This document shows positions 4,950 through 7,739 of a DNA stretch of 64,000 nucleotides, one piece after another (position 1 is the stretch's first letter; every line of letters starts with the position of its first letter). This stretch comes from Tsukamurella conjunctivitidis. Lineage in GTDB: Bacteria > Actinomycetota > Actinomycetes > Mycobacteriales > Mycobacteriaceae. The stretch spans positions 186,001 through 250,000 of the forward strand of contig NZ_VIGX01000003.1 of the NCBI RefSeq assembly GCF_007858475.1, read 5' to 3'. Position numbers and translations under genes: made by a program. The notes beneath the pieces were generated by a model. It did no database searches, had not been told where the DNA came from, and saw only the letters and a program-made list of their open reading frames with translations.

Positions 4950-4983
4950 GAAGCGATTCTCCTAAGTTTCTTCCCGACCGCCG

Positions 4984-5113
4984 ACCGAGTTAGCTGACGG
5001 GTTCGGGCGAGGAAGATGCCCTACCCCGGAGGCGTGAGCCTCCGGCGATTCACCCCGGATAACGCGTGTGGGTCCCCGGCGAGGCCTCGCGGCCTCTTAG
5101 GCGGTGACCTCGG
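4984..5113 (-). ncRNA. c-di-AMP (ydaO/yuaA class) riboswitch
   Basis: Read on the minus strand, the leader contains the conserved blocks of this class in the correct order: a GGGGACCCA block near 5063-5075, GGGGUGAAUC near 5050, a variable GC hairpin (CCGGAGGC...GCCUCCGG), AGGGCAUCUUCC, and the signature CGAACCCGUCAGCUAAC near 4987-5008. CCGAG at 5109-5113 can pair with CUCGG at 4984-4988 to close the aptamer. It ends about 35 nt before the GTG of an NlpC/P60 gene. In actinobacteria this class precedes wall-hydrolase genes and usually switches them off when c-di-AMP is high; the direction here is inferred. Confidence 0.92.
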
Positions 5114-5234: not shown

Positions 5235-5480
5235 TTATCCGGCTTGTTTCGCCTGGTCAGGGACAACCCTGAGACGCGGCAACATTCCCTCGTTCGCGAA
5301 CGCCGCGATCGCGTCACTCAGGCCCGGCTCGACCGTGACCGCAGGGCTTCCGGCGCCGTCCGCGGCGCCCGGCACGGCCGGCGCCGCCACCACGACCGGG
5401 CCGAGGAGGAAGCCCACGGAGCAGTCGCCGCAGGCGCGGGGCTTGGCGGGGCAGGTGGAGCAGTCGACGTGCAGTGTCAT
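5235..5480 (-). CDS. small protein with N-terminal CX2CX6CX2C motif, function unknown
   Basis: An 81-residue protein whose first 20 residues hold four cysteines (C7, C10, C17, C20) spaced CX2C-X6-CX2C, a pattern that could bind zinc or an Fe-S cluster. The middle is hydrophobic (GFLLGPVVVAAPAVPGA) and the C-terminus is amphipathic and charged. ATG 5480 is preceded by AAGGGA at 8 nt. It is transcribed divergently from a DEDD/GIY-YIG nuclease, and its promoter at 5519-5541 matches the RecA-independent DNA-damage promoter consensus, which suggests a role in the damage response. It reads towards the riboswitch-controlled wall hydrolases. I do not recognise a named family. Confidence 0.8.
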   Translation of the reverse strand: MTLHVDCSTCPAKPRACGDCSVGFLLGPVVVAAPAVPGAADGAGSPAVTVEPGLSDAIAAFANEGMLPRLRVVPDQAKQAG

Positions 5481-5518
5481 GGCGTTGTCCCTTCGGGGCC
5501 GGGGTCGTGATGTCGGCG

Positions 5519-5541
5519 ACGCTAATCGCGGCCACCGACAA
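5519..5541 (-). promoter_or_regulatory. RecA-independent DNA-damage (PafBC/RecA-NDp type) promoter of the four-cysteine protein
   Basis: On the minus strand TTGTCGGTG (5541-5533), exactly 8 nt, then TAGCGT (5524-5519). This fits the mycobacterial consensus tTGTCRGTG-N8-TANNNT at every defined position. It would give a leader of about 30 nt with the ribosome binding site. Confidence 0.75.
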
Positions 5542-5544
5542 CTT

Positions 5545-5560
5545 TCGAGTGCGCGTTCGG
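5545..5560 (+). promoter_or_regulatory. weak LexA (SOS)-box-like sequence
   Basis: TCGAGT-GCGC-GTTCGG resembles the actinobacterial SOS box TCGAAC-N4-GTTCGA with three mismatches. It lies between the two divergent damage promoters. The mismatches make LexA binding doubtful. Confidence 0.3.
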
Positions 5561-5571
5561 GCGGCGGAAAC

Positions 5572-5594
5572 CTGTCGGTGGGGTGTTCTACGGT
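5572..5594 (+). promoter_or_regulatory. RecA-independent DNA-damage (PafBC/RecA-NDp type) promoter of the nuclease gene
   Basis: CTGTCGGTG (5572-5580), exactly 8 nt, then TACGGT (5589-5594), which ends 6 nt before ATG 5601. It matches tTGTCRGTG-N8-TANNNT except for the first, weakly conserved base, and implies a leaderless transcript. Confidence 0.75.
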
Positions 5595-5600
5595 CGCCGC

Positions 5601-7430
5601 ATGCAGCTCAGCCTGGACGATTGCGAGACGGGCACCGTCGACCCGCCCCTGAGGGAGGTGACGTTCGTCGTGGTCGACCTGGAGACCACGGGCGGCTCGC
5701 CGCGCGGTGGGGACGCGATCACCGAGATCGGTGCGGTCAAGGTGCGCGGCGGCGAGGTCCTGGGCGAGTTCGCCACGCTGGTCGACCCCGGCTGCGGCAT
5801 CTCCCCGCACATCACCCACCTCACCGGTATCACGACCGCGATGGTCACGGGCGCGCCGCGGATCGAGTCCGTCCTCCCCTCGTTCCTCGAGTTCGCGCAC
5901 GGCGCCGTCCTGGTGGCGCACAACGCCAGATTCGACCTCGGGTTCCTCAAGGCCGCAGCGGCGGCCACCGGTACGCCGTGGCCGAAGCCGGCGTCGTTGT
6001 GCACGGTCCAGCTGGCCCGGCGCGTGCTCACCCGGGACGAGGCGCCGTCGGTCAAGCTCAGCGAGCTCGCCCGACTGTTCCGCACCGAGACCACCCCCAA
6101 CCACCGCGCTCTCGACGACGCGCGGGCCACCGTCGAGGTGCTGCACGGGCTGATCGGCCGGGTGGGCAACCTCGGCATCGGCACACTCGGCGAGTTGCGC
6201 GGCCACCTGCCGTCGGTCACCCCGCAGCAGCGGGCGAAGCGTCACCTCGCGGATCCATTGCCGGATCGCCCCGGCGTCTACCTGTTCCGCGGCCCCGGGA
6301 ACGAGGTGCTGTACGTCGGCACATCGGGCGACCTGCGCCGGCGCGTGCGCAGCTACTTCACGTCGGGCGAGACGCGGGGCCGGATCAAGGAGATGGTCGC
6401 CCTCGCGGAGCGCGTCGACCACGTGGAGTGCGCGCACGCACTCGAGGCCGCCGCGCGGGAGCTGCGCCTCATCGCCGCGCACACTCCCCCGTACAACCGC
6501 CGGTCGAAGTACCCCAAGCGCGGCTGGTGGATCTGCCTCACGGCCGAGGCCTTCCCCCGGCTCGCCGTGAAGCGCTCCGCGCCGGCGGGAGCCGCGTGCA
6601 TCGGGCCGGTGCGCTCGCGGTCCGACGCGGCGGACCTCGCGGAACTGCTCGCCGAGACGTGCGGCCTCCGCACGTGCACCACCCGTCTGCGGGCCGGGGC
6701 GCTCCACACGTGCGCTCTGGGGCCCGACGGTGCGCGCCCCCTCGGCGGATGCTGTGCCTCCGTCGCGGAGCCCGAGCCCGCGGCGCTGTACCGGTTACGG
6801 GCCGACCGGGCGGCGGCGGCGCTCTCCGGGCGCTCGTCCGAGGTCTTCGCCGCACTGGAGGAGCGCCTGGCGGCGCTCGCCGAGCGGGAGTTCTTCGAGT
6901 CGGCGGCCCGGCTGCGCGACCGCGCCGCCCGCCTCGTGGACGCGGTGGCCCGATCGCACGCACTCGTCGCCTTCGCCGACGTGCCGGAGCTGTCCATCGC
7001 CCACCCGGACGGCGCGGGCGGGTGGGAGCTGTCGATCGTGCGGCACGGACGGCTCGCAGCGGCCGGCGTCGCGCCGCGGGGCGTGCCGCCGATGCCGGTC
7101 TTCGACCGCCTGCGCTCGGCCGCGGAATCCGTCTACGAGGCGGGCGGCGACCCGCTGGCGGCCCCCGACGTCCCCGACACCCTCTTCCCCGCCGACACCC
7201 TGCACGGCGCCAGCCCGGAGGAGGCGTCCCTCCTGCGCCGATGGGCACTGCGCCCCGGCACGCGCATCGTGGACGTCCAGGGCGTCTGGGGCGAACCGCT
7301 GGCCGGCGCCGGGCGCTGGCTCGAGTGGGCCGGACGCGCCGCAGAGGCGGGTCGCGACGCCCGCTCGGCGGCGGCGCATCCCCGCGGGCCCGCCAGGCAA
7401 TACAGTGAGGGGGCCACGCACGCCGCGTGA
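5601..7430 (+). CDS. DEDD-family 3'-5' exonuclease fused to a UvrC-like GIY-YIG endonuclease domain
   Basis: A 609-residue DNA-repair-type nuclease, counterpart of M. tuberculosis Rv2191. The N-terminal third is a DnaQ-like exonuclease: FVVVDLETTGG (Exo I), VAHNARFDLGFL (Exo II) and HRALDDARAT (Exo III), about residues 15-180. A GIY-YIG domain follows (DRPGVYLFRG...VLYVGTSGDLRRRVRSYF, about residues 215-310), as in the N-terminus of UvrC or the stand-alone Cho. The C-terminal half has a cysteine-containing region (CTTRLRAGALHTC, GGCC) and no further motif I can name; the RNase H-like half of UvrC is not evident. ATG 5601 is favoured by the damage-type -10 box 6 nt upstream. The GIY-YIG domain should nick damaged DNA and the DEDD domain trim it; this is inference. 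Confidence 0.9.
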   Translation: MQLSLDDCETGTVDPPLREVTFVVVDLETTGGSPRGGDAITEIGAVKVRGGEVLGEFATLVDPGCGISPHITHLTGITTAMVTGAPRIESVLPSFLEFAHGAVLVAHNARFDLGFLKAAAAATGTPWPKPASLCTVQLARRVLTRDEAPSVKLSELARLFRTETTPNHRALDDARATVEVLHGLIGRVGNLGIGTLGELRGHLPSVTPQQRAKRHLADPLPDRPGVYLFRGPGNEVLYVGTSGDLRRRVRSYFTSGETRGRIKEMVALAERVDHVECAHALEAAARELRLIAAHTPPYNRRSKYPKRGWWICLTAEAFPRLAVKRSAPAGAACIGPVRSRSDAADLAELLAETCGLRTCTTRLRAGALHTCALGPDGARPLGGCCASVAEPEPAALYRLRADRAAAALSGRSSEVFAALEERLAALAEREFFESAARLRDRAARLVDAVARSHALVAFADVPELSIAHPDGAGGWELSIVRHGRLAAAGVAPRGVPPMPVFDRLRSAAESVYEAGGDPLAAPDVPDTLFPADTLHGASPEEASLLRRWALRPGTRIVDVQGVWGEPLAGAGRWLEWAGRAAEAGRDARSAAAHPRGPARQYSEGATHAA

Positions 7431-7463: not shown

Positions 7464-7739
7464 GTGATCACCGCGATCGTCCTCATCAATGCCGACGTGC
7501 ACCGCATCCCCGAGACCGCGCAGGCCGTCGCGAACATCGAAGGCGTGACCGAGGTGTACTCCTGCGCCGGCGATATCGACCTCATCGCGAAGGTGCGCGT
7601 CCGCGAGCACGATCAGATCGCCGAAGTGGTGACCGAGAAGATCAACCGCCTCGACGGTGTGGCGAGCACGTCCACTCACATCGCCTTCCGCGAGTACGCC
7701 TCGGCGGACATCGACGCCGGCTTCGACATCGGGAACTGA
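7464..7739 (+). CDS. stand-alone Lrp/AsnC ligand-binding (RAM) domain protein
   Basis: A 91-residue protein that corresponds only to the C-terminal ligand-sensing domain of Lrp/AsnC regulators and has no helix-turn-helix. The pattern (VLINADVHRIPETAQAVANIEGVTEVYSCAGDIDLIAKV...INRLDGVASTSTHIAF) is the beta-alpha-beta-beta-alpha-beta fold that dimerises and binds amino acids between subunits. It starts at GTG 7464 with GGAAGG 8 nt upstream. It ends 4 nt from the convergent stop of the next gene. Such stand-alone domains may modulate full-length Lrp proteins; no target can be read here. Confidence 0.85.
   Translation: MITAIVLINADVHRIPETAQAVANIEGVTEVYSCAGDIDLIAKVRVREHDQIAEVVTEKINRLDGVASTSTHIAFREYASADIDAGFDIGN

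Follow-up and report, generated by a model that had tools for sequence, protein, structure and literature searches.

Between two divergent genes of Tsukamurella conjunctivitidis, one encoding a small four-cysteine protein and the other a nuclease with DEDD exonuclease and GIY-YIG domains, lies a short region that was read in an initial annotation as a bidirectional DNA-damage promoter. The locus raises the question of whether the two genes are served by one control element or by two, and of what the small protein, to which no role had been assigned, contributes to the response to DNA damage. The region was analysed within a 64,000-nucleotide stretch of the genome, referred to here as the window. 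Both genes lie downstream of the region in opposite directions, as had been described, and the features discussed are listed in Table 1.

Promoters of the PafBC, or RecA-NDp, type in mycobacteria were reportedly treated by Gamulin in 2004, and the main paper on the PafBC regulon is said to be that of Muller, from 2018. The consensus quoted for this LexA-independent promoter is tTGTCRgtg, a stretch of 8 nt and TannnT (PMC5656591). PafBC is activated by single-stranded DNA and acts by sigma adaptation, upon which the housekeeping polymerase uses such promoters (PMC11804915). PafBC controls the majority of damage-induced mycobacterial genes (PMC6789036); its regulon in M. smegmatis exceeds 150 genes (PMC8223512), and in M. 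tuberculosis the motif works in an orientation-dependent way (PMC8151990).

Two motifs of this type are found back to back in the window. The minus strand reads TGTCGGTG-GCCGCGAT-TAGCGT from position 5540 to 5519, with a T at 5541 preceding it, and the plus strand reads TGTCGGTG-GGGTGTTC-TACGGT at positions 5573-5594, with a C at 5572 preceding it. On the small-gene side and on the nuclease side alike, a TGTCRGTG element stands 8 nt before TANNNT, which confirms, by direct inspection and by pattern search, the two exactly spaced motifs that had been noted. The 9-mer common to both, TGTCGGTGG, which does not include the preceding T or C, accounts for the reported 9-bp inverted repeat with 32 nt between its arms. 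The pattern TGTCRGTG-N8-TANNNT, which takes the form TGTCGGTG-N8-TANNNT in both cases, has two matches in the window and none in 100 dinucleotide shuffles.

Table 1. Genes and promoter elements of the divergent region, numbered from the first nucleotide of the window.
Feature	Position	Strand	Sequence or description	Basis
Small four-cysteine protein gene	5235..5480	-	81 aa; start ATG 5480; C-x2-C-x6-C-x2-C	
PafBC-type (RecA-NDp) promoter, small-protein gene	5519..5541	-	TTGTCGGTG-N8-TAGCGT	Sequence, pattern, shuffles, conservation
-10 hexamer, small-gene promoter	5519-5524	-	Transcription would be expected to start near 5512	
Spacer between motifs	5541..5572	none	32 nt; CCGAACG-type core common to most Tsukamurella loci	
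PafBC-type (RecA-NDp) promoter, nuclease gene	5572..5594	+	CTGTCGGTG-N8-TACGGT	Sequence, pattern, 104/115 distinct nuclease loci
-10 hexamer, nuclease promoter	5589-5594	+	Transcription would be expected to start near 5601, leaderless	
DEDD exonuclease and GIY-YIG endonuclease gene	5601..7430	+	609 aa; actinobacterial Cho-like+Exo type	Family models

The start codon of the nuclease lies 6 nt after its -10 hexamer. Since this distance is the same in all 16 genomes of the genus, the nuclease transcript is probably leaderless. A longer reading frame from a GTG at 5583 would begin inside the promoter, and the start is corrected here to the preferred ATG at 5601. The protein carries an N-terminal DEDD exonuclease domain (PF00929, RNase_T; E 3.3e-35) and a GIY-YIG domain (PF01541; 22.9 bits against a cut-off of 22.6), and its best model, NF005905 (885.7 bits against a cut-off of 508), covers nearly the full length. 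UvrC models align through residue 453-466, all below their cut-offs; TIGR00194 (uvrC), for instance, aligns over residues 219-453. Judged by its domains, the nuclease is of the known Cho-like+Exo type, a subfamily of Actinobacteria described in PMC1564403, where its role in 3' incision is itself only a proposal. The window protein has the same N-terminal DEDD exonuclease and the same GIY-YIG domain, and the sub-threshold UvrC alignments may mark a counterpart of the UvrC-like C4-UvrBb part that follows in this type; no difference was found in a comparison that covered the DEDD, GIY-YIG and UvrC models. Just after the nuclease gene, a short open reading frame (7464-7739, plus strand) encodes an Lrp/AsnC ligand-binding domain; a DNA-binding domain was not found in it.

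Published mycobacterial data give indirect support to damage induction of the nuclease. From gene order, Rv2191 is taken here to be its orthologue in M. tuberculosis, and MSMEG_4259, from its number beside MSMEG_4256, is probably its counterpart in M. smegmatis. Rv2191 is activated by H2O2 (PMC10178195). MSMEG_4256 is the orthologue of Rv2190c (PMC3987819), and MSMEG_4259 was up (log2 1.8), together with recA, ruvC and tag, upon overexpression of the DNA-damaging MSMEG_6762 in M. smegmatis (PMC9416677).

The same motif is enriched in the genome of the host. A strict search of the 5.07-Mb genome yielded 18 matches, against one for the reversed pattern, which together with the shuffles upholds the view that two exactly spaced matches are unlikely to arise by chance. 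Six of the 16 other sites precede genes of repair or replication, namely uvrB, uvrA, dnaE (DNA polymerase III alpha subunit), dciA (a DciA-type protein), tag (3-methyladenine glycosylase) and a gene for a RecQ-like helicase that scores below the recQ cut-offs. We presume tag, dnaE1 and Rv0004 to be PafBC targets in mycobacteria. The uvrA and uvrB sites agree with the UvrABC members named in the account of the M. smegmatis PafBC regulon (PMC8223512). Strict sites are not all found before repair genes, and two of them (L005 and L017) are followed by short reading frames only, one of which, at L017, resembles by eye ribosomal protein L34. Three sites precede genes of the DUF222-HNH type, recognized by Pfam (L003) or by sequence likeness (L008 and L014). 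Behind five others (L004, L006, L007, L010 and L013) are family-less proteins (L004 and L007), a LysR-type regulator and an ABC transporter, the gene at L006 having one match just under the cut-off; in four of these five, the ATG is 6 nt after the -10 hexamer. This distance recurs in eight genes of the genome, including uvrB and the window nuclease, and would fit leaderless mRNA.

WYL-domain proteins occur at four places in the genome, two of them in tandem between pafA and tatC; the gene order, read by eye, is pafA-pafB-pafC and then tatC. Taken by their positions, the strict sites mark a predicted damage regulon in this genome. A PafB-like match is present in 241/246 genomes of the class (E <= 1e-15), although some of these may be WYL paralogues. 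Because such matches are nearly universal, the co-occurrence of the small gene with PafB says little, and it was discarded as uninformative. The match is absent at this threshold from four of the 165 genomes with the small gene (G085, G120, G128 and G161). In one of them, G128, the small gene is nevertheless preceded by the motif (L178), which may point to a diverged PafB or to another reader of the motif. Overall, the region shares with mycobacterial PafBC/RecA-NDp promoters the consensus, the exact spacing, the repair genes behind other sites and the presence of pafB and pafC. It differs in that two such promoters stand here back to back; no other close pair occurs among the 18 strict sites of the genome.

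Conservation of the motifs was assessed upstream of each gene. A total of 170 small-gene loci (L019-L188) was reduced to 146 by keeping one locus for each distinct sequence of the 60 nt immediately upstream, and 136 loci with the nuclease N-terminus were reduced to 115 by removing repeats and short upstreams, 107 of which have the small gene in the same record; related genomes remain in these counts, and 80 loci were hand-picked among the matches listed from the class and family profile searches. The sense pattern TGTC[AG][GC]-N10-TANNNT occurs <=250 nt upstream of the small gene in 128/146 distinct loci, and the reversed pattern in none; in 200 mononucleotide shuffles the count averaged 0.11 and never exceeded 2. 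When T is allowed at the sixth base, the count rises to 137 (about 94%; reversed, 2), leaving nine loci without the motif. The same wider pattern is found before the nuclease in 104/115 distinct loci (reversed, 0) and is absent from 11.

De novo counting led to the same motif, as the top 6-mers upstream of the small gene are TAGCGT (72 loci, 3.2 expected) and TGTCGG (94 loci, 9.3 expected). With TGTC as the anchor, the frequencies of T at +16, A at +17 and T at +21 are each 72-73%. Within the genus, both motifs are present in 16/16 genomes by the wider pattern and in 14/16 by TGTCNG-N10-TANNNT; close relatives that keep the gene pair and lose both motifs were looked for, and none was found among these 16. 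The enrichment in the genome, the repair genes at other sites, the presence of pafB and pafC, the conservation in the genus and the de novo 6-mers support the reading of the motifs as PafBC/RecA-NDp promoters. Some loci (L128, L131, L135, L183, L043 and L050, as well as L237 and L238 outside the class) feature a variant first half-site, TGTCGTAC in place of TGTCGG(T/A)(G/C), with the same spacing. Outside the class, where 20 of 48 matches were sampled, the wider motif precedes the small gene in 9/20 loci (reversed, 0) and is absent from 11; near variants were seen, by eye only, in some of the latter.

The two genes are divergent in all 107 distinct loci in which both were placed, with <=700 nt between their starts in 89. 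Among these 89 close pairs, both motifs are present in 78, the small-gene motif only in seven, the nuclease motif only in three and neither in one. The motifs are 32 nt apart in 12/16 genomes of the genus and 38, 43, 44 or 79 nt apart in the rest, and in other relatives distances of 2 to 107 nt and upwards are seen; a fixed 32-nt bidirectional element was accordingly rejected as a general feature. The notion of a bidirectional promoter thus holds in so far as two PafBC-type motifs stand back to back, but not as a single element: since the 32-nt spacing is not fixed, the region is made of two abutting promoters.

Loss of one gene tells the two promoters apart. The 63 genomes in which the nuclease but not the small gene had been matched were represented by 18, to which two mycobacterial controls with both genes and both motifs (G250 and G291) were added. 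One of the 18 loci (L218, in G129) has a diverged small gene with both motifs; a wider profile found no small gene in the fetched stretches of the remaining 17. The divergent motif is absent from 17/17 of these loci, and the nuclease motif is kept in 14/17 (all except L214, L215 and L220). Set against the 85/89 close pairs with the small-gene motif, the difference gives a Fisher P of 3e-16, a value that ignores kinship, the 17 loci representing six families with 11 loci from a single one (f29). Because the divergent motif is gone with the small gene while the nuclease motif is kept, each promoter goes with its own gene, and the two are independent PafBC-type promoters. Both the small gene and its promoter are absent from the nuclease loci L203-L215, which come from two genomes of one genus in the same family and from eleven of f29.

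The small protein has its cysteines at residues 7, 10, 17 and 20. The untranslated leader of its gene would be about 32 nt long if transcription starts at the position expected from the -10 hexamer. Relatives were found in 35/61 genomes, its own included, by a single-sequence search. Profile searches placed the protein in at least 165/246 genomes and at least 70/96 genera of the class, in at least 86/151 genomes of the family and in at least 59/246 genomes of a phylum sample, 48 of these 59 being outside the class. These figures are lower bounds, as scoring was confined to the top candidates of an initial pass; G129, for instance, went unmatched in the class profile search, yet it has the gene. 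The consensus of the family is MxIDCDxCxVRxxACxDCVVxVLLGxP...ExxALxVLAxxGLVPPLRLV, and the four cysteines in CxxC pairs are invariant in 84/84 aligned members, partly by construction, as the gene-placing script required a four-cysteine pattern. Across 14 Tsukamurella loci (91 pairs), dN/dS has a median of 0.22 and a maximum of 0.38, and the 58 ungapped codons are variable at the third position in 46 cases, at the first in 21 and at the second in 17. The small protein is real, is under constraint at the protein level and is widespread in the phylum.

Family models say little about it. The window protein matches no Pfam or NCBIfam family at E <= 0.001. When 84 diverse members were scanned singly at E <= 0.05, four Pfam and three NCBIfam families were hit, each by one to three members (best E 0.0014), and a profile of the family matched no solved structure up to E 10. 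A Pfam match to the endonuclease III type 4Fe-4S motif, seen in 3/84 members (best E 0.015), was rejected as evidence of an Fe-S cluster because it is too weak. This motif, which we take to be C-x6-C-x2-C-x5-C, shares the C-x6-C-x2-C core with the small family, but the fourth cysteine is on the other side. From the cysteine pattern, the case for metal binding is evenly balanced; the metal would most likely be zinc, or less likely an Fe-S cluster.

A mobile or phage origin was also rejected. No relative of the small protein was found in viral contigs by profile search; phages and plasmids gave no tblastn match to the protein of one relative each, and plasmids gave no blastn match to a 69-base piece. 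No published name for the protein was found, and MSMEG_4257, MSMEG_4258, MSMEG_4260 and Rv2190A, tags guessed from the numbering, are not mentioned in the literature searched. The family was not found among the members named for the M. smegmatis PafBC regulon (PMC8223512), and the gene may be listed unnamed in the main regulon paper or in supplementary gene tables.

On the same strand, the small gene is followed by an NlpC/P60 gene (4284-4949, minus strand). A c-di-AMP riboswitch (4964-5113, minus strand; RF00379, 71.4 bits against 38) sits between the two, so that separate control of the NlpC/P60 gene is probable. In 113/143 distinct loci with >= 1 kb available, the small gene likewise has an NlpC/P60 match behind it in the same orientation; this neighbourhood is conserved without obvious reason.

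The small protein could serve the neighbouring nuclease exclusively, as a partner or as a regulator, and be kept in a fixed ratio to it by the common promoter region. The constant divergence and frequent proximity of the two genes would fit such a role, as would their co-occurrence, the nuclease match being class-wide and found in 164/165 genomes with the small gene (E <= 1e-20) against 63/81 without it. Co-occurrence, however, clusters by lineage, and a number of weak nuclease matches may represent no more than DnaQ-like proteins. Moreover, the small gene keeps its own motif in 39/40 loci in which the fetched stretch does not include the nuclease (reversed, 1), compared with 98/106 in which it includes the nuclease N-terminus (reversed, 1). 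Outside the class, only 4/20 small-gene loci have a nuclease match within the fetched stretch, and the 17 loci described above, from six families, lack the small gene beside the nuclease. With its promoter persisting where no nuclease is near and its gene missing from nuclease loci, the small protein has no fixed link to the nuclease. Obligate partnership is weakened by these results, and a dedicated one is rather unlikely.

That the conserved spacer core gives LexA additional control over the region in Tsukamurella is improbable. Scored against what we take to be the mycobacterial SOS box consensus, the spacer of the window (CCGAACG..CGA) has 9/12 matches, and that of one relative has 10/12; a score of 9/12 is, however, also the best in many loci without such a spacer. 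One-mismatch boxes occur at 23 places in the genome of the host, against 10 for the reversed control, and none is exact, so that weak boxes are not diagnostic. A further point in favour of LexA comes from seven other genera of the family, in which 19 loci, repeats included, have an 11/12 match over the PafBC-type promoter of the nuclease (L043, L044, L045, L048, L058, L089, L091-L093, L100, L103, L104, L106-L108, L120-L122 and L125). The box begins 9-10 nt from the T of TGTC and covers the -10 hexamer, and the best score on the small-gene side is 10/12. Judged by these matches, the nuclease promoter of the seven genera is likely a composite LexA/PafBC promoter, in agreement with the dual control of recA, uvrA and uvrC by LexA and PafBC (PMC8223512).

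A single composite element, in which fixed spacing matters and PafBC on one side influences the other, is very improbable. The prevalent spacing within the genus is consistent with it, and the expected starts, about 89 bp apart, would leave little room for two polymerases; on the other hand, the spacing varies widely in relatives, the divergent motif is missing together with its own gene, and PafBC without polymerase does not bind promoter DNA in vitro (PMC11804915). Finally, although their -10 part is the same as that of a normal promoter, the chance that the sites arose at random or belong to ordinary sigma-A promoters with no link to PafBC is next to negligible, given the shuffles and reversed controls, the repair genes behind several sites, the class-wide conservation with exact spacing and the strong SOS-box matches over the nuclease -10 hexamer in seven other genera of the family.

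The organization that we consider highly probable is that of two separate PafBC-dependent sigma-A promoters placed back to back, with the nuclease on one side and, on the other, a small protein that is putatively an accessory factor with a metal site. Upon DNA damage, single-stranded DNA would activate PafBC, and active PafBC, if it works in T. conjunctivitidis as in mycobacteria, would let RNA polymerase use both promoters. Rightward transcription would give a leaderless mRNA for the Cho-like+Exo exonuclease/endonuclease, whose probable task in nucleotide excision repair is to introduce the 3' incision and to trim it. Leftward transcription would give the mRNA for the small protein with its invariant C-x2-C-x6-C-x2-C site, the four cysteines of which would most likely hold a metal, zinc rather than an Fe-S cluster. 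Under this two-promoter arrangement, the small protein would be no obligate subunit of the nuclease but a separate, widespread target of the PafBC type.

As to what the small protein does, our best guess is a metal-thiolate factor that assists or regulates the damage response. That it acts on the response itself is only a tentative proposal. Equally speculative is the idea of an ancestral factor dedicated to the PafBC response across Actinomycetota, either as its effector or as its feedback regulator: a metal-thiolate protein, expressed from a PafBC promoter in almost all of its occurrences in the class, that would target the PafBC-polymerase complex, UvrAB or the replisome, and not the nuclease.

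The promoter type and the nuclease are of known kinds; the part worth following is a widely shared small target without a family model. Relatives with an SOS-box match exactly over the PafBC-type -10 hexamer of the nuclease offer a simple promoter in which two damage pathways may be combined. The small gene itself is a small, deletable and testable part, for which metal binding can be assayed, as can survival, mutation rate or shut-off of the response upon its loss. Because a PafBC-type promoter is kept before it in 137/146 distinct loci and in 9/20 loci outside the class, the small gene is a strong candidate for the core of the damage response.
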